Positions 36,533 through 48,282 of a DNA stretch of 64,000 nucleotides are shown one piece after another; position 1 is the first letter of the stretch, and every line of letters begins with the position of its first letter. Location of the stretch: NCBI RefSeq assembly GCF_017255295.1, contig NZ_JAFKDE010000002.1:434001-498000 (forward strand). The letters are read 5' to 3'. The translations under genes and the position numbers were made by a program. The stretch comes from Nitratireductor aquimarinus (GTDB taxonomy: Bacteria > Pseudomonadota > Alphaproteobacteria > Rhizobiales > Rhizobiaceae). Below the pieces are notes generated by a model. The model was not told where the DNA came from and did no database searches. It was given only the letters and a program-made list of their open reading frames with translations.

Positions 36533-38062
36533 ATGCGCACCACAAACGAACCCGTTGCGGAAGGGGCAATCTTGGGTCACGATTTCGATATTGCTGAACC
36601 GGCGCGCCGCACCGGGGTGCCGGGCTATGTCGTTGCCATGGGCGGCAGTCTGATCCTTCTGGCCGCCCGCCTGTGGATGGGGCCGGCGTTCAGCGGCATC
36701 TGGATCATTTTCCTTGCATCGCTCACGGCCCTTTACGCCGCGATCCTTGGCGGGCGTGTTGCCGGAATTGTCGCGGTGGCGCTGGTTGCCGGAGCCGTGG
36801 CGCTGGTCGGCGTCGTGGACACGCTGCCGCTCTCGCTTCCCGTGTTTGCCGCGCTCATCGCCTTTCTCATCCTTATCGCCCATGTGGGCGCTGCCTATTT
36901 CAACGCCGAAGATGCGGGAAAGCTGGTGCGCCAGCAGCTTGCGGCGCGCGACGCGCATCTGAACTCCATTCTCGACACGGTTCCGGACGCCACCGTGGTC
37001 ATCGACCACAAGGGAACGATGGTGTCGTTCAACCGCGCAGCAGTGCGCCAGTTCGGCTATACGGAAGACGAGGCGCGCGGCAACAATGTGAAAATGCTGA
37101 TGCCCGAGCCCTATCGCGGGCAGCATGACGGCTATATCGAGCGCTACAAGACCACGGGTGAACGCCGCATCATCGGCATCGACCGCGTGGTGGTCGGTCA
37201 GCGCAAGGATGGCTCCACCTTTCCCATGAAGCTCGCTGTTGGCGAGATGAAGAGTGGCGGGCGCACCTTCTTCACCGGTTTCATCCGTGACCTGACCGAG
37301 CGTGCGGAAACCGAAGCGCAGATGGAAGAGGTGCAGGCGGAACTGGCGCGTCTTGCCCGCCTCAACGAGCTGGGGGAAATGGCCTCGACCCTGGCGCATG
37401 AACTCAATCAGCCGCTTTCGGCCGTCTCCAACTATGTGCAGGGCTGCAAGCGGCTCCTGAACGATCTGGATGACCCCGTGGCCGAGCGCATGCGCGATGC
37501 GCTGGAAGAGACGGCGCGGCAGTCGCTTCATGCCGGACAGATCATCCGTCATCTGCGTGAATTCGTCTCGCGTGGTGAGAGCGAGAAGCACCCGGAAGAC
37601 CTGCAAAAACTGGTCGAGGAGGCCGCCGCACTCGCCCTGATGGGCTCACGCGAGCTCGGCGTGCACACCGTCTTCGAGTTCGAAGCCGGGCTTGGCAGGG
37701 TTTTCGTGGACCGGGTGCAGATCCAGCAGATCTTGATCAATCTCATGCGCAATGCCATGGAGGCGATGCGCGAGAGTGACGGTCGCGAACTCAAGGTGAC
37801 CGTGGCTTTCAACGAGGAAGGCGATGCCATAGACATTGACGTGTCCGATACGGGAACGGGAGTTCCCGAGGAGATCGCCGAGAACCTTTTCAAGCCGTTC
37901 GTTTCATCCAAGAGGGGCGGCATGGGCGTGGGGCTTGCGATCTCAAAGCGGATTGCCGAGGCCCATGGCGGCATGTTGAAACTGATCGTGAGTTCGGGCG
38001 AGGGGACGACATTCCGTTTCACGCTGCCCGCAATGGAAGAGCAGGAATTGCAGAATGCCTGA
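36533..38062 (+). CDS. fixL: Oxygen-sensing haem PAS histidine kinase FixL
   Basis: The 509-residue protein has four N-terminal membrane helices (about 30-122), a haem PAS domain (about 135-255) and a HisKA/HATPase core. The PAS part has the haem-ligand His at about H198 in [11 protein letters not shown] and RIIGIDRVV; the phospho-acceptor His is H289 in AHELNQPL. The ATP domain shows [10 protein letters not shown] and [18 protein letters not shown]. FixL is inhibited by O2 binding and at low O2 phosphorylates FixJ. Its stop lies eight bases inside fixJ, so the two are coupled. Confidence 0.96.
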
Positions 38063-38672
38063 TGATGTGGTGATCCATATCGTTGATGATGAAGAGCCGG
38101 TGCGCAAATCGCTGGCTTTTCTGCTCACCATGTCCGGGCATGTGGCGCGGGTGCATGAATCGGCAACGGCCTTTCTCAAGGTTGCGCCCGGGCTGCAGAA
38201 TGCCTGCCTGATCACCGATCTGAGAATGCCGGACATGAGCGGCGTCGAGCTTCTGCAGCGGCTGAACGAGCACGGCGCCATGCTGCCGGCCATCGTCATC
38301 ACCGGCCATGGCGACGTGCCGATGGCGGTCGAGGCGATGAAGGCGGGCGCGCTCGACTTCATCGAGAAGCCGTTCTCCGACGACACGCTCATGGAGGCGC
38401 TTTCCCGCGCGATCTGCGAACTCGACAAGCGGCCACCGGCCGCCGCCGATGCGGCGCTGGTGCGGGGCCGGGTGGAGCAGCTTTCGGAGCGCGAACAGCA
38501 GGTGATGCGCCGGATCGTGGCGGGCATGCCCAACAAGACGATCGCCTTTGAACTCGATATTTCCCCGCGCACGGTCGAGGTTCACCGGGCCAATGTGATG
38601 TCCAAGATGCAGGCCAGAAACCTGCCGGAACTGGTTCGCATGGTCCTGCAGGCCGGTGATCCGGTCGGCTGA
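38055..38672 (+). CDS. fixJ: Response regulator FixJ
   Basis: The 205-residue protein has a receiver domain ([14 protein letters not shown]; phospho-Asp D55 in ITDLRMPD; Lys in IEKPF) and a LuxR/GerE helix-turn-helix ([24 protein letters not shown]). Phosphorylated FixJ activates fixK. The ATG at 38055 overlaps the end of fixL by eight bases. FixK and the FixT-like gene follow on the same strand. Confidence 0.96.
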
Positions 38673-38693
38673 TTTCGCCTTTCACTGGGCGTT

Positions 38694-38707
38694 TTGATCC
38701 AACGCAA
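38694..38707 (+). promoter_or_regulatory. Hybrid FNR/FixK box upstream of the FixT-like gene
   Basis: TTGATCCAACGCAA has TTGAT and CGCAA half-sites with the N4 spacer. It lies between fixJ and the receiver-like gene and would make that gene FixK-dependent. Confidence 0.75.
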
Positions 38708-38799
38708 AGCACGATGGCGACCGACGGCAGAGATTGTACACTGCTGCGGTGACTGATTTGCGTTGCCCGGCAGTGAGGAGATGCCGGGATGTGCATGCA

Positions 38800-39153
38800 A
38801 TGATTCTCGTGGTGGCGCCCGATTCAGCCTTTCGATTGTCACTGCGATTCATGCTTGAATCGGAGGGGTACGACGTTGTCGTGCCGCGCAATCTGGAAGA
38901 GGTTGAACGGCTGCGCCGCACGGCTGCCTGCACGATTGTGGATCATGAAGTCCTTGCCGACATGAAGGTGCCGCTTGAACGGCTGCTTGGCGGGGCCGGG
39001 CCACTCGTTCTTCTGGCCGATACGCTGGATGAGATGCCGCAGGCCGGGCACATAAGAACCATAGAAAAACCGCTCCTTGGGAGCGCCGTCGTCAACGCGG
39101 TTCACGACCTTCTGGAGCAGGCCCGGCATCGCGATCTGAGAGGCGCTACGTAG
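38800..39153 (+). CDS. Single-domain receiver-like protein, FixT candidate
   Basis: The 117-residue protein aligns with receiver domains but has no output domain. The first acidic pair is reduced (APDS in place of DDEE), the phospho-Asp position is kept at D48 in TIVDHEV, the Thr/Ser is lost and Lys is kept at K90 in TIEKP. One cysteine lies at residue 44. It sits between fixLJ and fixK with a FixK-type box upstream. In Sinorhizobium and Caulobacter, FixT is a receiver-like inhibitor of FixL made under FixK control, so the same role is likely. Start codons at 38734, 38791 and 38800 are possible; I prefer the ATG at 38800. Confidence 0.75.
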   Translation: MILVVAPDSAFRLSLRFMLESEGYDVVVPRNLEEVERLRRTAACTIVDHEVLADMKVPLERLLGGAGPLVLLADTLDEMPQAGHIRTIEKPLLGSAVVNAVHDLLEQARHRDLRGAT

Positions 39154-39232
39154 AATCCCGTAGGGACAAAACCGAATTTCGCGCGTGCGGGCATTGCGGC
39201 AGTAATGGAGCATCCAAACGACGGAGGCACCC

Positions 39233-39901
39233 ATGTTTGCACAGGCCGCAACCGCACACGCACCGACAGCTCCTTTCCGGGGGCATCAGCGTCTTGCCGA
39301 GGCGCGTCCGGCGCCTGCGTCGTTTTCTCCCGACCAGCCGCACCAGATTGCCTTCTTCGAGGCCAATGAAGAGGTCTATGCGCAGGGCGAGCGCGCCAAT
39401 GCGCTCTATCAGGTCGAGTTCGGTGCGGTTCGCCTCTATCGCCTCCTGTCGGACGGTCGCCGTCAGATCAGCGCCTTCCATGTGGCGGGCGAAGTGTTCG
39501 GTTTCGAAGCCGACGGCCATCATCATTTCTTTGCTGAAGCCGTTGGCCCGGCCGGCATTCGCGTGTTCCGTCAGCCTGCCAATGAAGGCAACTGGCGTCA
39601 GACGCTGGACGCCGCTCTGGGTGCGCTCGTTCGTGCGCAGGAGCATCTTCTGGTGATCGGCCGGCAGAACGCCGCCGAACGCGTCGCTGCCTTCCTTCTC
39701 GACATGATGGAGCGCCAGGACAATGCCCGCGAGGTGCAGCTTCCCATGTCGCGCACCGATATTGGCGATTATCTGGGCCTGACCATCGAAACGGTTTCGC
39801 GCACTTTCTCGAAGTTCAAGAGCAAGGGCCTCGTCCGCCTGGCCAACACGCGCACGGTGGAAGTGGTCGACGAAGCCGCCCTCAGGGCCATGTGCGCCTG
39901 A
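39233..39901 (+). CDS. fixK: Crp/Fnr family regulator FixK
   Basis: The 222-residue protein has a cNMP-binding-like fold without an FNR-type Cys cluster and a C-terminal helix-turn-helix MSRTDIGDYLGLTIETVSRTFSKFK, as in rhizobial FixK. It activates ccoNOQP, ccoGHIS and other FNR-box genes. The ATG follows GGAGGCACCC. It closes the regulatory part of the fix block, downstream of the FixT-like gene. Confidence 0.92.
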   Translation: MFAQAATAHAPTAPFRGHQRLAEARPAPASFSPDQPHQIAFFEANEEVYAQGERANALYQVEFGAVRLYRLLSDGRRQISAFHVAGEVFGFEADGHHHFFAEAVGPAGIRVFRQPANEGNWRQTLDAALGALVRAQEHLLVIGRQNAAERVAAFLLDMMERQDNAREVQLPMSRTDIGDYLGLTIETVSRTFSKFKSKGLVRLANTRTVEVVDEAALRAMCA

Positions 39902-40085: not shown

Positions 40086-40877
40086 TTGGCTTCGGTTTTC
40101 GGTGAGGCTGTCTCGGATATATGCGCTGGCCTGAAACGCTATTACGTTTGGGCGGCTTTGGCGCGCGAAGATCTGGATGATCAGCATCGTCGAACCACCC
40201 TTGGCCCGCTGTGGATGCTATTGAACTATCTCCTCCTTGCAGGGGCCTTCATCGTCGTCTTCGGTCGCGGTGAAGATGTTGGGCATCACGTGGCTTACGT
40301 TGCTATCGGGCTTTTTGTCTGGTTTTACTGCTCGGAGCTCATTTCGCGCTCCGTGACACTGTTCAAACGCGAAGAGAGCCTTATTCTCGGAACCCCATTA
40401 CCGATAACTGTCTACGTAATGCGCTTGTGCATGCAGGCATTTATCCGTGCCTGCTACTCCGGGGCCGGGTGCCTTCTTCTGCTTCTTTTTTCTGATGTCT
40501 CTCCAAGCCTGATGGATATCGGTTATGCGGTCTTGGGAATTGCCTTGATCGCTGCAATTACACCAGCTGTTGTTATTGTATTGGCAATGGCTGGCGCCTG
40601 GTTCCCTGATCTGCAGTTTATTGTTTCAAATCTTCTCAGGCTCGGCCTCTTTTTAACACCAATTTTCTGGAGTTATGGAGGTGGCGATAGTCTGCGTGAT
40701 TACATCTATATGTATAACCCGTTCACTTGGGTCCTGCATGTCGTGCGTGCGCCTATCATAGAAGGGGGCTTTCCCTTGGTCGCTTTTAACATCACCTTGA
40801 TGATCGGTCTTTGCTGCTGGATTGTTGCTATGTGGCTGTTGGGAAGTCTTCGCAAGAAAGTCGTGTTTGTCTTGTAA
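40086..40877 (+). CDS. Polysaccharide ABC exporter permease (Wzm/TagG type)
   Basis: The 263-residue ABC-2 type permease has an N-terminal region ([18 protein letters not shown]) and six membrane helices, ending in KKVVFVL. It resembles exporters of O-antigen, capsule or teichoic chains. It starts with TTG at 40086 and its stop overlaps the next start (TAATG). With Wzt and the convergent TagD/LicD genes it forms an envelope glycan locus without any glycosyltransferase in the window. Confidence 0.85.
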
Positions 40878-41608
40878 TGGTTTCTGTTGATGTAAAAGAT
40901 CTCGGGCTGCGGTATCGCCTGCAGAAGAGGTTTTCACTTGCCCCTGGTCGTCAGCAGGCGAAGGCCACGGGCGGCGCGATCATGCGCGAGGGGGGCTCTG
41001 CCTATGTGCAGGCTCTGGATGGCATCAGTTTTTCGCTGAAGGCGGGGGATCGCCTGGGGCTTGTGGGTTCCAATGGTGCAGGCAAGACCACGCTTCTCAA
41101 GGTGCTCTACGGGATTTACGAGCCGACCTCCGGAACCGTTGACGTGGAGGGGCGTGTTGATGCGCTCTTCAATATCCGTCTGGGGTTTCGTGCAGGGGCA
41201 AGCGGACGGCGGAACATCGAACTTCGTTGTCTGATCAACGGGTGGACGCCGGAGCAGATCTCAGACAGGATTGATGAAATCGTCGAGTTTTCCGAGCTGG
41301 GGGATTTTATTGATCTTCCGCTAAAGTCCTACAGTCAGGGGATGGCCGCCCGCTTGGCTTTTGCGGTCGCCACTGCAACGGAACCCGAAGTCCTGCTGAT
41401 GGATGAGTGGATCGGCGCTGGGGATCCTGAATTCCAGGAAAAGGCCAAGGCACGTATGCAGGAGATTACGGAAGAGGCGGGAATTATCGTGCTGGCCAGC
41501 CATAATAAGAACCTTATCCAGAAGAGCTGTAACAAGGTTTTGCATTTGGAAAAGGGGAAGCTGAGGAGCCTGCTTTCCGTTGAAGAGTGGGCGAACGGCA
41601 GCAAGTAA
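40877..41608 (+). CDS. Polysaccharide ABC exporter ATPase (Wzt/TagH type)
   Basis: The 243-residue ATPase has Walker [10 protein letters not shown] (64-72), signature YSQGMAARL and Walker B VLLMDEW, and the subfamily insert [22 protein letters not shown]. It lacks the C-terminal carbohydrate-binding domain of O9a-type Wzt, so it is closer to KpsT or TagH. The ATG overlaps the permease stop by one base. It drives export by the TTG-started permease. Confidence 0.88.
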
Positions 41609-41631
41609 AAAAAAGGCGTTTTTGTTTTCTT

Positions 41632-41662
41632 CCGCTGATCGAAATTATCCCTCGATCAGCGG
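41632..41662. terminator. Inverted repeat between convergent wzt- and licD-like genes
   Basis: CCGCTGATCGA (41632-41642) and TCGATCAGCGG (41652-41662) form a perfect 11-base stem. It overlaps the end of the LicD-like gene and has a T-rich tract on the minus strand side, so it probably ends that transcript. Confidence 0.6.
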
Positions 41663-42835
41663 GTGCCCCGAGAGACTTTTCTTGAGTTTCTCTGCCTGTT
41701 CATAATTCCCCTCTTCATACAGTGCGCCTACGCGTTTTAGGAAAAGGGCTGGCGAAAAGAGATTGCTGACGATCGCCAGGTTTGGAGTTCCGGTTGTGCA
41801 ATTGAACTCGGTCACAGGTGTTTTCCAGTCGCCGTAGTTCTCCGTTAGATACTGGTCGGCATTCTTCGGACCTTTCACGGCAACACCATCGAGTTCATAA
41901 TCCACCAGCTCAAAATCGTGGTTGTCCCACCGATGTAAGATTGAGCCATGCCATCGCACGCCATCCTCCAGGTAGTGAACGAACAAGTCGATGTTTATCC
42001 CGCTCTTGTGGATCACCTTGATCATGGTGGGAAGGTTTTCGATCACATAGCGATCGCCCTGCCGGGCAATGCGTATCTGATTGTCGATCTTCCGTATCTC
42101 AAAAGCAGGACACTCCTGGAGTGCCGTTTTCATCTGCTGAAGGTCGAACTCTTCCGCATGCACCCCGATGTCGACGTCGTAATCGTGATCCAGCCATCCG
42201 CCCTCACGGATCAGTCCCAGGAAAGTTCCCGATATCACGTACCAGGGAGAACCGTTCTGAGCCGCAAGAGCAGCAAAATCCGATAGCGCGTGTCGCGCAT
42301 CTGATTTGGAGAAAACGTTTTCGTTTTCGCCATGTTTGGGCTTCCCCTGTCTGGGCGCTGGTTTGATATCTTTCAGCAGCTCTTCGGCTTCCCTGAAACA
42401 ACGCCGGTAGGTTTGCAGTGTCTGCTCAAACTTGGCTTGGTCGCCTTGCGTCAGGTGCAGGTGCGCTTCACGAGCCAGCGCATACAGCCTGTCCGTGGCG
42501 TCATCAAACGGGGAACGCTTGCCGCCTATTCGATCCAGATAGCGATGAAACGCCTGAAGTTCCGTCAACTCCATGCCGTCGGTAGGGTCAAAAAAACGGT
42601 CATTCAGAAGCGAAAGCCGAAACGGGCTTCGCCTTGTGATCCAGTGGAGCTGCCTCAGCCCCGTCTTGAAGTCATCGGCAGCAATTTTCGAGCGGACATG
42701 ATTGGCAAGTGTGAAGGAGTTGCTGGACACCGCAGCGAGCGCCCAAGATGCTCCCGAGACTGTTCCTTTGACAGGGGCGGAGTGTCTTCTGTTCAAGAAG
42801 TTCAGAAGGCGGTAGCTTTTGGAAATGGGTCGCAT
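41645..42835 (-). CDS. LicD/fukutin-like nucleotidyl or phospho-transferase
   Basis: The 396-residue protein has an N-terminal region of about 160 residues that I do not recognise and a C-terminal LicD-like domain. The key motif runs ISGTFLGLIREGG then DHDYDVDIGV (about 201-225), with the acidic metal triad D218, D220 and D222. LicD moves phosphocholine onto glycans, and fukutin moves ribitol phosphate from CDP-ribitol. Sitting directly after a CDP-glycerol synthesising gene, this protein may transfer glycerol phosphate. Its ATG abuts the TagD stop. Confidence 0.78.
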   Translation of the reverse strand: MRPISKSYRLLNFLNRRHSAPVKGTVSGASWALAAVSSNSFTLANHVRSKIAADDFKTGLRQLHWITRRSPFRLSLLNDRFFDPTDGMELTELQAFHRYLDRIGGKRSPFDDATDRLYALAREAHLHLTQGDQAKFEQTLQTYRRCFREAEELLKDIKPAPRQGKPKHGENENVFSKSDARHALSDFAALAAQNGSPWYVISGTFLGLIREGGWLDHDYDVDIGVHAEEFDLQQMKTALQECPAFEIRKIDNQIRIARQGDRYVIENLPTMIKVIHKSGINIDLFVHYLEDGVRWHGSILHRWDNHDFELVDYELDGVAVKGPKNADQYLTENYGDWKTPVTEFNCTTGTPNLAIVSNLFSPALFLKRVGALYEEGNYEQAEKLKKSLSGHPLIEG

Positions 42836-43231
42836 TCAGGAGGCCGCACGTATTCCGGCCAGAAGTTCCGTCGTGGAGATGTCGGCTGTACGTGGCAGGT
42901 AGACGACCTCGCAAAGTTCTTTGAAGACGTCGAACTTTCCGGCCCAATCATCTCCCATCACCAGGATATCCGCTTTTTGTTCACGGATGTACTGGCCTTT
43001 CCATTCGAGACTTTCTTCTCGAAAGACGCCGTCAACGCAGCTCAGTCCAGCTATGATCGCGAGCCTGTCCTCTTCCCGGTAGATCGGGTAGCGGTTCTTT
43101 TTCTTGAAGTTCAACGCATCCGTTGAAACTCCGACGACCAGTTTATCTCCGAGATCGCGTGCACGCTTCAGAATATTGAGATGGCCTATGTGGAACACAT
43201 CAAACGTTCCGAATGTGATCACGGTTCGCAC
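42836..43231 (-). CDS. tagD: Glycerol-3-phosphate cytidylyltransferase (TagD type)
   Basis: The 131-residue cytidylyltransferase has the nucleotide motif TFDVFHIGH near the N-terminus (residues 9-17) and the late RTADISTTELL. It makes CDP-glycerol from CTP and sn-glycerol 3-phosphate. I take the GTG at 43231 because CGGAG sits seven bases before it and the length then matches TagD; an upstream TTG at 43249 is possible. CDP-glycerol pathways are best known from Gram-positive wall teichoic acid. Confidence 0.85.
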   Translation of the reverse strand: MRTVITFGTFDVFHIGHLNILKRARDLGDKLVVGVSTDALNFKKKNRYPIYREEDRLAIIAGLSCVDGVFREESLEWKGQYIREQKADILVMGDDWAGKFDVFKELCEVVYLPRTADISTTELLAGIRAAS

Positions 43232-43426
43232 GGCGTAGCTCCGTTTCAAAAAAGTGTCACAAAACTGTTACAAATCCAACTTACGAAAATCAACCTCCGC
43301 TCGATATAACGATTTACTGGGCTGCGAATTATCCCGTGACCCCGGCGGCGCGCTCTCAACGAGCGGTGGCGCGGGAGTCATTTTGAGATCCGATCCGAAA
43401 CGGGCCGAAGAGCCTCTTGATCAAGC

Positions 43427-46400
43427 TCAAATCTCATGAACGCGGGGCGGGGTGTCGCAGACTTTTTGTGCCAGGTCGATCACGTGGCGGTGGTGGGTCA
43501 GGTAGATGGCCTGGCCGCGGCGGCCGATCTGTTCCATCACCCGGCACGCGGCGCTGGTGCGGTTTTCGTCGAACGTCTCGAAAATGTCGTCGCAGAAGAA
43601 GGGCAGGCGGGTGCCCTGCGCGATGAGCTGCTCGTGGGCGGCGGCGCGCAGCGCAAGATAAAGCTGGAAGCGTGTTCCCTTGGAAAGCTCAGCCACCCGC
43701 TTGGCCGTTCCCTCGCGATCGACCGCCAGAAGCGTTTCGTCATTGCCATCGGGCTGTGTCGTCAGGCGTTCATAAGCGCCCTGCGTCAGCGTTGAGAAGC
43801 AGCTTTCGGTGGCGGCCATCATGCCGCTGCGATGGGTGTCCCGGTAGCGGCGGATCGCCTCGTCGGCCAGCCGGTAGCCCAGCGAAAGCTCCAGATGATC
43901 GCGGGCAGCCTCTTCCAACTCCAATTCAAGCGTGGCCTTGCGCTCCGTCATGGCGGCAATGTCGGCGTCGCCGGTCACGCGAAGCAGCGCCTGCTCTGCC
44001 GTCACGCGCTTCTCGGTCGTTGCGGTCAACTGGCGTTCGGCCTCCGTCGCGTCAGCTTTCAGGCTTTCCGCCTCGGCTTCAAGGGCGGCAGCTGTGACGC
44101 CTTGCAGCATATCGCGGGCGCACTTCATGCTTTCCAGGCCCAGTTCGGAGAGAACCGTGCGTTCAAGCCTGGCCTTTTCCTGTCGCTCGGCGATGACTTG
44201 TTGGGCCTGTGTCGCGGTGCGGCGCAGGGCGTCGAGCGTGTCGACCGGCGCGTCTTCGGGGAAAATCCGCCCCATCACTTCGACCTCGCGGTCAATGTCT
44301 TTCAGCCGCTTCTCTTTCTCCGTCAGCCGGGTGCTGGCCCGGTCGAGATTTGCGCTCAGCTCCGCCGCGCGTGATTCCGCAGCGCGCGCCGCTTCGGAGC
44401 GTTCACGCAGCAGCGAGAATGTTGCAGCTGCGGTTTTGGCCACGGGAATATCGTGGGTGGCGGCGAGCGCCGTGACCCTGCTTTCGAAAAGCGCCTGATC
44501 GGCCTCCATGGTCGCGACGCGCTGCGCGGCGTCGGCGCGTTTTTCTTCGCCGTCGCGCAGAGCCCGCAGCGGATCGAGTGTCGCCAGAAGGCTCTCCTCA
44601 TTCACTGCATTGCTTAAAAGATCGCGGACCAGATCGCGCCAGGCGGCTTTCGCCTGCGTGGCCTTTTCCTTTGCAGCTTCCTGCCTTTTCGTTCTGCGGC
44701 GCAGCTCTTCGTCAATCGTGCGGCGCGCCTCATGAGCCTGTGCTGCGGCGGCAATCGCCTCGCTTTCCGCCTCGGCCAGAGTGCGGGCTGTGGCAAGAGC
44801 GCTGTCCAGATCCGGGTTCTCGAGGTTCAGATGGGGGAGGAGCGCATCAAGCAGATGCGCCGCCCGCGCCAGCGTCGGGCGATGCGTTTCGCGCAGGCGC
44901 GCGGTTCTCACAGAGGCCTCTGCCGCCGCCTCGTGGCGTTTCACCCAGTCAAGCCACTGCGCCGGCGACAGCGGGCGCGGAAGGCCCACGGATGCGGCGG
45001 CATCGTTCACGGTGCTTTCAAGCGCGGCCTGTTTTTCGCGAAGCGCTGTCAGTCGCGCCTGTGCCTGACCGGCGCGCGCCTGCAACTCAGCACCGGCCTG
45101 TTCGATCTGGCGCAGCTGCCCGAGATCGCGCGCCTGCAGGACGCGCGACTGCATCGCCGCATCAAGCGCGTGAAGCGCATGTTCGAAGGTCTGTGCGGTC
45201 CCGTCGTTCAATTCCGCGCGGTGTTTTTGCCAAAGCCGGTCCCGCTCGGTCTTGAGGGTGTTTGCCTCGCCATCTGAAACAAGGCTTGTGTCGGAGGCGA
45301 GCTGGGCGGCCTGCGCGCGGCGGGCGGCCAAATCCTCACGATGCTGCGAAAGCGCTTCTTCGGCCTGGGCGATCTGCCGCGTAAGTTCCGCGTGGGCCTC
45401 GGCCCAGTCCTGCGCCTTCAGGGGGCTTGTCGGGCAGTCCGGCAGTGTCTCGAAACGGACAGCGCCGACCGTGAGGCCTTCGCGCGCAAGGCGCTCGTCA
45501 GCGGCCGCCGCATCAATCGCCTGCTCGGCCCGTGCGATAAGGGGAACAAGGCGCTCCACATCATGGCGGGCGAGTATCTCGCCGATCCCGCACGCGGCCG
45601 GGATCTTCGCTGCCGCCGCTTCATGTGCCGTTTCCGCCTGCTCGAAACGCGCCGCCAGATCCTCGATCTCCCGGGTTTCGGCCAAAAGCGTCTGCTCGGC
45701 GCTGCGCAATTCATCGCGCGCGCGTTCAAGGCTGGCAATCTGGGCGGGCGTCAGCACAAGGCTTCGCGGATCGGTGGTCTCGTCAGCGCCAAGGTCTCTG
45801 GCTGCGCGCAGCATGGCGCTCTCGGCTTCAAAGACATTTGCGCGCCGGCGTTCAAGATCAAGCCCCGCGGTCACGTCACGCGCGCGCAGATCATCCAGTG
45901 CGTCCAGCGTCTCGGAGAGGGCCGCCAGTTCCGGCGCGCGGCTCAGGCCATCGCGCGCCGCGCTCGCCTCTTCGATCTCCATGGTCAGGCGCTCGATGTC
46001 CGCCCGTGTCCGGCTTTCCTCGGCAAGCAGTGTGACCAGACTTTCCGGTTCGAAATCCAGCCTTTCGGGAAAGGATGTGAAGGGGGCGATGCGGGCTGCG
46101 AGCGCCTCGATTTCGGCCAGCATGGGCACGGCGCGGCGTCTGGCGGCAATCCGGGCTGCATTCTCAAGCAGCCCATCGCGCGCGGTTCTGGCTTCGCCTT
46201 CCGCCTTGCGCGCATCGGTCAGCTCTTTCTTGAGGCTGCGCCATGCGCTTGCTGAAACGTCGCGCTCGCGAATGTCCTTTTCAAGCTGCGCCAGCTCACG
46301 CTTGAGAATGGCGATGCGCGTCTTGCTGGCCCTTTTGCGCCAGATTTCGTCCGCTTCTTCACGCACCTTGTCCAGAACGGTGCTCAGATCCGCCACGCCG

Positions 46401-46861
46401 GCGGCTGCGGAGAAGAGAAGCCGCCCGATATCGCCGCGCGCCTGCGCGATTTCTTCGCCGCCGCGCTCGATGGTTTCGTCGTCAAGGCACAGAAGGTGGC
46501 GGTAATCCTCTTCGGAAAGACCGGCCAGAAGGGCCGATATGGCGGTCTCGGGCAGGGGCGCGCCTGCCTCATCCACCAGCGCGCCGCTGCGTGTGGGAAG
46601 GCGGGTGAACCAGCGCAGGTCGCCGTCGATTTCCAGTTGCCCGGACACCTGCAGATTGCTGCGCTGGTGTTTGAAGGCGTAGCCCTCGCGGTTCGGGAAG
46701 CCATAGAAGAGGCGCAGCGCCGCCTCCATCGTGGTCGTCTTGCCCGCCTCGTTGGGCCCGTAGATGATGTGGAAATCGGGTTTCTCTCCGGCTTCGCCGA
46801 AGTCGAACTGACGGCCCGTGAAATGGCCGAAACGGTCCATGGAGAGTTTGCGCAGACGCAT
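43427..46861 (-). CDS. YhaN-type AAA ATPase, Rad50/SbcC-like
   Basis: The 1144-residue protein has an N-terminal ATPase half with Walker A GPNEAGKTTT, a long coiled coil (about 180-970), and a C-terminal half with the signature ELSKGTRFQLYLALR and Walker B FFCDDIFETFDEN. It begins MRLRKLSMDRFGHFTGR and overlaps the nuclease stop by one base. This is the SMC-like partner of the YhaO nuclease, as in Mre11-Rad50, likely in DNA end processing or repair. Confidence 0.92.
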   Translation of the reverse strand: MRLRKLSMDRFGHFTGRQFDFGEAGEKPDFHIIYGPNEAGKTTTMEAALRLFYGFPNREGYAFKHQRSNLQVSGQLEIDGDLRWFTRLPTRSGALVDEAGAPLPETAISALLAGLSEEDYRHLLCLDDETIERGGEEIAQARGDIGRLLFSAAAGVADLSTVLDKVREEADEIWRKRASKTRIAILKRELAQLEKDIRERDVSASAWRSLKKELTDARKAEGEARTARDGLLENAARIAARRRAVPMLAEIEALAARIAPFTSFPERLDFEPESLVTLLAEESRTRADIERLTMEIEEASAARDGLSRAPELAALSETLDALDDLRARDVTAGLDLERRRANVFEAESAMLRAARDLGADETTDPRSLVLTPAQIASLERARDELRSAEQTLLAETREIEDLAARFEQAETAHEAAAAKIPAACGIGEILARHDVERLVPLIARAEQAIDAAAADERLAREGLTVGAVRFETLPDCPTSPLKAQDWAEAHAELTRQIAQAEEALSQHREDLAARRAQAAQLASDTSLVSDGEANTLKTERDRLWQKHRAELNDGTAQTFEHALHALDAAMQSRVLQARDLGQLRQIEQAGAELQARAGQAQARLTALREKQAALESTVNDAAASVGLPRPLSPAQWLDWVKRHEAAAEASVRTARLRETHRPTLARAAHLLDALLPHLNLENPDLDSALATARTLAEAESEAIAAAAQAHEARRTIDEELRRRTKRQEAAKEKATQAKAAWRDLVRDLLSNAVNEESLLATLDPLRALRDGEEKRADAAQRVATMEADQALFESRVTALAATHDIPVAKTAAATFSLLRERSEAARAAESRAAELSANLDRASTRLTEKEKRLKDIDREVEVMGRIFPEDAPVDTLDALRRTATQAQQVIAERQEKARLERTVLSELGLESMKCARDMLQGVTAAALEAEAESLKADATEAERQLTATTEKRVTAEQALLRVTGDADIAAMTERKATLELELEEAARDHLELSLGYRLADEAIRRYRDTHRSGMMAATESCFSTLTQGAYERLTTQPDGNDETLLAVDREGTAKRVAELSKGTRFQLYLALRAAAHEQLIAQGTRLPFFCDDIFETFDENRTSAACRVMEQIGRRGQAIYLTHHRHVIDLAQKVCDTPPRVHEI

Positions 46862-48096
46862 CAGTTTTCAGCACCCTTCAGCCGCGCCAGAACACGCTCG
46901 CTTCCGGCTTCGGCAAGGCTTTGGGTGAGCCTTTCCGCTGCGGCCTCATCGGGCACGAGCCGCGCGCGAATGGCCGGCGGCAGATCCATCAGAACCTCAT
47001 CGATTTCGGTCTGGGCCGCGCTCGCAAAGCCCTGTTCCGCCTGGATTGCGGTGATCGTTGCGGCCAGCTCGTCGGTGGCGCTAAGCGCGCCGTCGTGCTG
47101 TGCCGGCGCGTCGAGGCTGAAGTCCAGCTTCTCGATCCAGAGGCGGTCGGTCTCCCGCGCCAACTCGCTGATCTGCTCGCCCCAGTAATCGCGGTCGCGC
47201 AGGAAATGCCAGTGGCGTTCCGGCGCGCCCTGCAGGGTGAGGCGCAGAACGCCGGCATCTGCCGTCAGCTCACCGGCGGTCGTGCGCAGGTGATCGCGCA
47301 GGAGGGTGCGCAGCGCCTCGTCGCTCTGCGCCGCCGTGATGTCGAGCGCGGAATTGGTGAACTCCAGCGCCGATGTGGGGATTTCGTCGACGCGAATGCC
47401 ACCGTCGTTGACGCTCAGAAGCGTCGCCGATTTCGGGCCTGCCTCTCCGATGTCACGCCCCTGCGGGATGCCGGGCATGACCACCCATGGCGCCTGCGAA
47501 TGGACCTGTCTCTTGTGGACATGGCCGAGCGCCCAGTAATCGAAGCCCATCCCTGACAATTCACTGACAGTGCAGGGGGCGTAGGTGTCATGCCCCGCCG
47601 CCCCGGCAAGCGATGTGTGCAGCATGGCGATGTTCACCGCACCGGCCACGGGGGCCGAAAAGCGCGGCAGGAGGCTGTCGGGCGCGTGTCGATCTGCAAA
47701 GCTGACGCCGTGCACCCAGATATTCTCCGCAAGCTGCACCTTTCCGCCCCGTGCGTCGAAGACATGCACATGATCGGGCAGGTCGAGCGTACCGGTTATG
47801 GGGTTTTCGGCATCGTGGTTGCCCTTGATGTAGAAGACCCGGGCACCCGCCGCGCGCAGGCGATCGAGCTGTCCGGTGAGGAAGGCGGCGGTGCGCGCAC
47901 TGCGCTCCTTGCCATCGAAGAGATCGCCCGAGATCAGCAGCGCCGAAACCTCTTCCGAGAGCGCGGTGTCGATGATCCGCGAAAAGGCGGCGCGGCTGGC
48001 GGTTTCCACCTTTTCACGCAGCGTCACATCGCGCAGGGCGAGCGATTTGAGCGGGGAGTCGAGGTGAATGTCGGCGGTGTGCAGAATTTTGATCAA
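46861..48096 (-). CDS. YhaO-type DNA repair metallophosphoesterase, Mre11/SbcD-like
   Basis: The 411-residue protein has the calcineurin-like metal motifs HTADIHLDSPL, ISGDLFDGKER, YIKGNHDAENP and GHVHKRQVHS. Its C-terminal part probably caps and contacts YhaN. I start it at the TTG at 48096, giving MIKILHTADIH, since AGAGGAAAC precedes it; the frame is open to 48144. It leads a two-gene operon with the ATPase. Confidence 0.9.
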   Translation of the reverse strand: MIKILHTADIHLDSPLKSLALRDVTLREKVETASRAAFSRIIDTALSEEVSALLISGDLFDGKERSARTAAFLTGQLDRLRAAGARVFYIKGNHDAENPITGTLDLPDHVHVFDARGGKVQLAENIWVHGVSFADRHAPDSLLPRFSAPVAGAVNIAMLHTSLAGAAGHDTYAPCTVSELSGMGFDYWALGHVHKRQVHSQAPWVVMPGIPQGRDIGEAGPKSATLLSVNDGGIRVDEIPTSALEFTNSALDITAAQSDEALRTLLRDHLRTTAGELTADAGVLRLTLQGAPERHWHFLRDRDYWGEQISELARETDRLWIEKLDFSLDAPAQHDGALSATDELAATITAIQAEQGFASAAQTEIDEVLMDLPPAIRARLVPDEAAAERLTQSLAEAGSERVLARLKGAEN

Positions 48097-48282
48097 TGCG
48101 TTTCCTCTGGACACGAACATGTCACCGGCAATCGCCAATCTCAAGCATGTCCCGGCGTCGGTCGTTCAGGTTTTCGGGGAAAACGACGTTCTGTGGCTCA
48201 ACCCTTTGGTTGCGAAGGGAGATGCGGCGCTGAAGCAGCGTCCCTCGTATAGGTGAAAGCTCATATAAAAATCATATTGTGA

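Follow-up and report, generated by a model that had tools for sequence, protein, structure and literature searches.

A TagD-LicD gene pair convergent with a Wzm/Wzt-type exporter in Nitratireductor aquimarinus: a candidate cassette for phosphoglycerol transfer and glycan export

Among described systems, the closest to the locus considered here are the group 2 capsule loci of Actinobacillus pleuropneumoniae. According to two papers, Cps3B and Cps7B make CDP-glycerol (PMC8262930), CpsC is a member of the LicD family for which a role as polyol-phosphate polymerase was reported in 2024, and Cps7C is a CDP-glycerol-dependent glycerol 3-phosphate polymerase that acts after Cps7A has primed poly-Kdo (PMC11666461). 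LicD proteins have also been proposed for ribitol phosphate in Enterococcus (PMC7188991). Here, we analyzed a 64,000-nucleotide stretch of the N. aquimarinus genome (the window, C2:434001-498000), in which positions 40086-43231 encode a Wzm/Wzt-type ATP-binding cassette (ABC) exporter, a TagD-type cytidylyltransferase and a LicD-like transferase. A sequence-only reading of the window had put this block forward as an undescribed system. This has to be given up, since the TagD-LicD pair corresponds to CpsB-CpsC of the Actinobacillus group 2 capsules, characterized in PMC11666461 and PMC8262930, and related pairs occur in many loci. The chemistry is known; the gene combination is a variant whose unusual feature is that PF04464 (CpsA/CpsD type), KpsC/KpsS and UDP-galactopyranose mutase were not found. 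Among the literature matches listed, none dealt with a LicD/TagD locus in Rhizobiaceae, in a search outside which most subscription journals lay.

The block contains four intact genes, the exporter pair on the forward strand being convergent with the TagD/LicD pair on the reverse strand, as had been read from the letters. The Wzm-like ABC-2 permease (40086..40877, 263 aa; PF01061 at 31.8 bits for a cut-off of 26.9) is followed by the Wzt-like ATPase (40877..41608, 243 aa from ATG, without a long C-terminal extension; PF00005 at 83.9 bits), whose ATG, in the preferred reading of its start, shares one base with the permease stop. On the other strand, the TagD-like gene (42836..43231; PF01467 at 80.2 bits) precedes the LicD-family gene (41645..42835, 396 aa; PF04991 at 29.5 bits, above the gathering cut-off of 22.6), and the LicD ATG comes immediately after the TagD stop. 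The mechanical open reading frame (ORF) of TagD extends to a TTG at 43249, but the GTG at 43231 was preferred because several relatives start at that position in the alignment. The TTG start of the exporter permease at 40086, also proposed by the sequence-only reading, is plausible: sister permeases start a few residues upstream, where the window has no in-frame ATG, GTG or TTG.

The best reading of these genes, as judged from context and homology, is CDP-glycerol-dependent phosphoglycerol transfer, and we see about an even chance that they act as one laterally acquired cassette making CDP-glycerol, placing glycerol phosphate on an acceptor that is synthesized elsewhere, and exporting the product. 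TagD would convert CTP and glycerol 3-phosphate into CDP-glycerol, from which a CpsC-like LicD would transfer one or more glycerol-phosphate units onto a lipid-linked saccharide acceptor; the saccharide would be made by enzymes encoded elsewhere in the genome and Wzm/Wzt would flip the product across the inner membrane. The sequences themselves show the gene content, the intact frames, the conserved motifs, the predicted fold, the association of neighbours and the atypical composition; in this scheme we infer the identity of the substrate and of the acceptor, the number of units added, and the carriage of this particular product by the exporter.

The nearest solved structure to TagD is B. subtilis TagD (1coz, E=3.4e-34). 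The protein carries HxGH (as HIGH) and RTxGISTT (as RTADISTT, with D for the G), which PMC8262930 gives as CTP-binding motifs of glycerol-3-phosphate cytidylyltransferase (GCT). The structure model of LicD (32-sequence alignment; mean predicted local distance difference test score 93.3) comprises a helical N-terminal part and an FKRP-like catalytic domain; the top 13 Foldseek matches were all FKRP chains, including the CDP-ribitol complex 6kam, at E about 1e-6. Residues H217, D218, D220, D222 and D283 are invariant across the 32 aligned LicD sequences. This LicD was the only one recovered by a genome-wide search. No homologue was found in nine sister genomes (the single match among 60 relatives was the own genome), and homologues were present in 5 of 394 family genomes, own included.

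A contig scan found 105 LicD relatives, of which 80, lying in 79 loci, were retained. The tree comprised 52 rows (49 LicD from L041-L083, plus L099, L007 and the window; two rows below 95 bits were dropped and L084-L119 omitted). A branch with a Shimodaira-Hasegawa-like approximate likelihood ratio support of 97 separated the window and 24 other rows from 27 rows including the CpsC-type proteins of Actinobacillus and Bibersteinia (Pasteurellaceae), in a tree obtained by a short search, rooted at midpoint, with several long branches and without A. pleuropneumoniae CpsC itself. The supported branch thus indicates that the window LicD does not group with Actinobacillus-type CpsC, although the catalytic domains are homologous (overall identity 29% with L064 and 26% with L070). 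The group of the window spans marine Rhodobacterales, halophilic gammaproteobacteria, an actinobacterial assembly and others; to our knowledge it has no characterized member. Eight viral contigs also encode LicD relatives, one of them over most of the protein (L199:4001-5065, 32%); this 41-kb contig is classed as viral, perhaps wrongly, since it may come from a plasmid or a chromosome.

The TagD-LicD association is widespread among these relatives. We recovered tagD by tblastn (E<=1e-12) in 49 of the 79 LicD loci and in the examined flank of 18 of the 22 closest ones (L041-L062; missing from L043, L044, L045 and L048, some of which lie close to the end of a contig), and in nine of these 22 it shares the strand of licD and is located upstream of it by no more than 400 bases. 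The Pasteurellaceae loci L064, L070 and L083 show the order CpsA-like, TagD, LicD, CpsD-like beside KpsTME-like genes, so that the window resembles the CpsB-CpsC loci in having a TagD-type gene beside a LicD-family gene near an ABC exporter. PF04464 was searched for in 25 genomes or records drawn from 81 loci with LicD relatives (the 79 scan loci and two plasmids) and was present in 23; those without it were L045, a possibly incomplete metagenome-assembled genome, and L055. The latter carries TagD and LicD together with two Stealth-type proteins, and the LicD/TagD region of Paracoccus plasmid 1 carries an XcbB/CpsF-type gene. The pair thus recurs while the type of polymerase varies, which fits a linker role. 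The glycerol-phosphate decoration proposed earlier is one possibility, but precedent would point rather to a linker or polymerase role. Other arrangements were seen among the relatives. Thioalkalivibrio L049:7024-11236 has the order PF04464-GDPD-TagD-LicD, where the phosphodiesterase may, at a guess, shorten or modify chains of glycerol phosphate. In L045:105-3191, two LicD genes lie in tandem beside KpsTEM-like genes; one bears a TPR and belongs to the CpsC side of the tree, the other belongs to the window side, and no PF04464 was found in that assembly. A 797-aa fusion of polysaccharide pyruvyl transferase and LicD lies next to TagD and a second LicD in L054:6775-9168.

Two further kinds of system invite comparison. 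In Rhodobacterales, capsule loci on Phaeobacter inhibens pP78_d and on plasmid 1 of Paracoccus denitrificans PD1222 encode LicD homologues (91-95% coverage, 32-34% identity) with tagD in the same region. These plasmid loci are however larger, with a separate ABC transporter, capsule/sugar-transporter genes (which we take, on the annotations, to be of Kps type) and PF04464 proteins, besides the Paracoccus XcbB/CpsF-type gene. As in the Gram-positive wall teichoic acid pathway (TagD, TagB/TagF, TagGH), predicted CDP-glycerol synthesis is accompanied by an ABC-2 exporter, the ATPase scoring 152 bits against TagH, and a clade relative of the window LicD sits in an actinobacterial locus resembling those for wall teichoic acid (Dermatophilaceae L044:2-8073), with the order LytR/CpsA/Psr ligase, GT2/PF04464, LicD, Wzm, Wzt. 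In contrast to that pathway, the window has LicD in place of PF04464 enzymes, the host is Gram-negative and the TagH score stays below the cut-off of 320.

The exporter itself is of a type that had glycosyltransferase (GT) genes around it in most loci compared. Relatives of its permease occur in 38 of 394 family genomes, a count that takes in the own genome, four sisters and 33 from outside the genus; for the comparison we took 24 loci, 20 from those 33 and four from the sisters. A GT2 or GT4 gene was present in the DNA around the exporter in 20 of the 24, one of them weak (L188, 1e-6). Among the loci without one, contig ends truncate L182 and L194, and L180 has GT8 and RgpF-type domains; at L176, no glycosyltransferase family was found in the four proteins tested. 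The window is an unusual, cassette-poor case of this exporter type, though perhaps not the sole one. The permease scored 103 bits against the galactan permease model NF050109 (cut-off 380) and the ATPase 219 bits against the galactan ATPase model NF050108 (cut-off 400); the sister exporter of G008 likewise fell under both cut-offs. Galactan as cargo was rejected since no recognized UDP-galactopyranose mutase is present in the genome, although the exporter is closest to the galactan models.

The sequence-only reading had noted an AT-richer block and suspected lateral acquisition, and both points stood. The GC content of 40086-43249 is 0.530 versus a window mean of 0.623, a level reached by 1 of 305 equally long sliding windows (those overlying the block counted too), and in codon usage none of the 33 other long genes called in the window scores as low as any of the four. 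On the left, a sensor kinase/regulator pair, a small ORF and a Crp/Fnr-type regulator (36533..39901, forward strand; Crp domains for the gene at 39233-39901), presumably FixLJ-like and FnrL, form a conserved flank: identity to the sisters G001 and G008 is 79-83% for three of its four genes and 65-69% for the small ORF (38800-39153). At the same site in these genomes, the exporter permease is 53% and the ATPase 63-64% identical. Long DNA matches to the ATPase gene occurred in four of nine sisters (G001, G002, G008 and G009; ten genus genomes, own included), and those in G001 and G008 sit at the chromosomal site of the window. The homologous Wzm/Wzt genes of G001, G002 and G008 belong to UDP-galactopyranose mutase loci, with glf and GT2 behind the exporter (joined in G001 by a sulfotransferase and a GlfT2-like gene), whereas glf (PF03275) was not found by a genome-wide search in the window's genome. 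In G003 and G005, the same regulators are followed, at a distance of about 7-12 kb downstream, by other ABC-export genes. The site beside the left-flank regulators repeatedly hosts glycan cassettes. Low GC, atypical codons, and the presence of other glycan-export cassettes at this site in some sisters make lateral acquisition well supported. Because the atypical composition is common to all four genes and the exporter is more diverged from the sisters than three of the four flank genes, the data suggest a joint import of all four, and most simply the window cassette is an import. Inheritance of the exporter with the sister genomes was not favoured, its 53/64% identity being below that of most flank genes (the small ORF again at 65-69%) and its composition different. 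The glycan-export cassettes that follow these regulators on the right differ between sister genomes (loci L025, L026, L029 and L031), in the manner of a replacement hotspot.

Several observations weigh against a single cassette for CDP-glycerol synthesis, transfer and export. A convergent layout is by itself no proof of co-function, and in its divergence the small flank ORF comes close to the exporter ATPase. The sequence-only reading had combined CDP-glycerol supply with a LicD/fukutin-type transferase using a CDP-alditol, which context and homology support, but TagD reaches 125.4 bits against the GCT equivalog TIGR01518, below its cut-off of 165.4, and its third GCT motif (RYVDEVI-like) is degenerate. 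The FKRP matches of LicD extend over about 180 columns with a TM-score of about 0.3 and a root-mean-square deviation of 7-8 Å. Pfam, which may miss TPRs, found no TPR family in the window LicD or in its clade mate L055; on the CpsC side, TPR_19 was above its cut-off in L045:105-1604 and L070 gave only a sub-threshold TPR-like match. Moreover, the usual partner enzymes were not found. Genome-wide, there were no matches to PF04464, of which a very divergent member (compare L141, 21.7 bits) could be missed, and none to KpsC/KpsS (PF05159), and without the primer and KpsC/KpsS the known CpsA-CpsC route is incomplete here. Beside the exporter there is also no KpsE-like gene. A tblastn search with 11 queries over 256,929 bases of the own genome (overlaps and the window included; a small part of 4.57 Mb) yielded no match to the eight PF04464-type queries in the stretches searched, the sole match being a weak one (E 0.003) from a LytR/CpsA/Psr query. 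Finally, as stated earlier, no glycosyltransferase was seen in the window, in that neither GT2 nor GT4 was found, by local GT models too, other families having had no systematic search. Membership in the group 2 capsules was rejected, KpsC/KpsS not being found in the genome.

Since GT2 and GT4 are absent from the window, the acceptor must be built by enzymes elsewhere, or LicD must make the polymer alone. As for partner glycosyltransferases, which the sequence-only reading had suggested seeking elsewhere, the genome has four PF00535 and four PF00534 places, none within the window, and genes of Wza, Wzc, GT2, GT4, sugar-transferase and flippase type are clustered about 35 kb downstream (G000:C2:512.6-522.8k). 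This cluster also lends itself to a different arrangement, in which some other system would export the glycan (for example this Wzx/Wzy-type exopolysaccharide cluster, or that for lipopolysaccharide), TagD and LicD would provide it with one glycerol phosphate as a side-group, and the neighbouring Wzm/Wzt would be unrelated to them. The convergent rather than co-directional gene order and the analogy with phosphocholine-type LicD decoration would agree with it. We nevertheless consider it unlikely, as the LicD clade stands in ABC-exporter loci with TagD and polymerases in many relatives, the composition is common to all four genes and the closest characterized relatives make linkers or polymers and not side-groups.

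The other way out would be a four-gene, teichoic-acid-like pathway without glycosyltransferases in a Gram-negative bacterium: TagD would supply CDP-glycerol, LicD, in place of all PF04464 enzymes, would on its own prime and extend a poly(glycerol phosphate) chain on a lipid-linked sugar of general use, and Wzm/Wzt would export it. This seems to us rather improbable. We are similarly doubtful that the cassette is an incomplete remnant of an O-antigen or capsule locus that lost its glycosyltransferases and left an exporter without cargo. The GT2/GT4 genes accompanying most compared exporters and the failure to find PF04464, KpsC/S and glf genome-wide are consistent with such decay, but the four intact frames, conserved motifs and tight gene spacing argue against it.

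The low TIGR01518 score of TagD is not an isolated case. TagD relatives (E<=1e-15) occur in just 14 of the 394 family genomes, own included, and the five nearest ones in the family (L139-L143) are 62-66% identical to the window protein, score 123-133 bits and share with it SLE/SLD-type residues where other TagDs have WEQ. All five adjoin PF04464-type proteins (that of L141 just under the cut-off, 21.7 versus 22.1), and in L142 a borderline LicD (22.8 bits) lies about 4 kb from the TagD relative. These six proteins look like a real divergent subclade, which most likely still works with a glycerophosphotransferase-type donor; the substrate of L139-L143 may differ. We think it improbable that this subclade activates a different polyol phosphate or phospho-amino-alcohol for transfer by LicD: the low scores and the SLE/SLD-type residues would fit, as would the LicD relatives with CDP-ribitol as their actual or proposed donor and the cholinephosphotransferase model that, far below cut-off, is the top NCBIfam match for LicD, but TIGR01518 is still the best model for TagD by far (125 versus 76 bits for the next), five of ten TagDs from other LicD loci (141-187 bits) are also below its cut-off, and the nearest TagD relatives adjoin PF04464 proteins. 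Phosphocholine transfer was not favoured either, TagD being nearer to glycerol-3-phosphate enzymes (E 3.4e-34) than to choline-phosphate ones (5.9e-8) in a search that had LicC-type enzymes outside its scope.

A search for marks of island ends found no direct repeats of at least 16 bases, and three inverted pairs were chance-like. Promoter-like matches numbered 1 for 1.6 expected and terminator-like ones 7 for 4.4 +/- 2.1 expected. On the right, the cassette adjoins a large AAA_27 ATPase and a calcineurin-like phosphoesterase (window positions 43427-48144), a pair that we take to be YhaN/YhaO-like and that has scarcely any DNA match in the sisters.

The capsules for which PMC11666461 reports LicD-family polymerases also employ a PF04464 enzyme as primer. 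The locus described here offers a compact natural setting in which to see if a LicD of the window group can act without PF04464 partners, and if chemistry of the teichoic acid kind extends to the cell surface in a Rhizobiaceae-type alphaproteobacterium.

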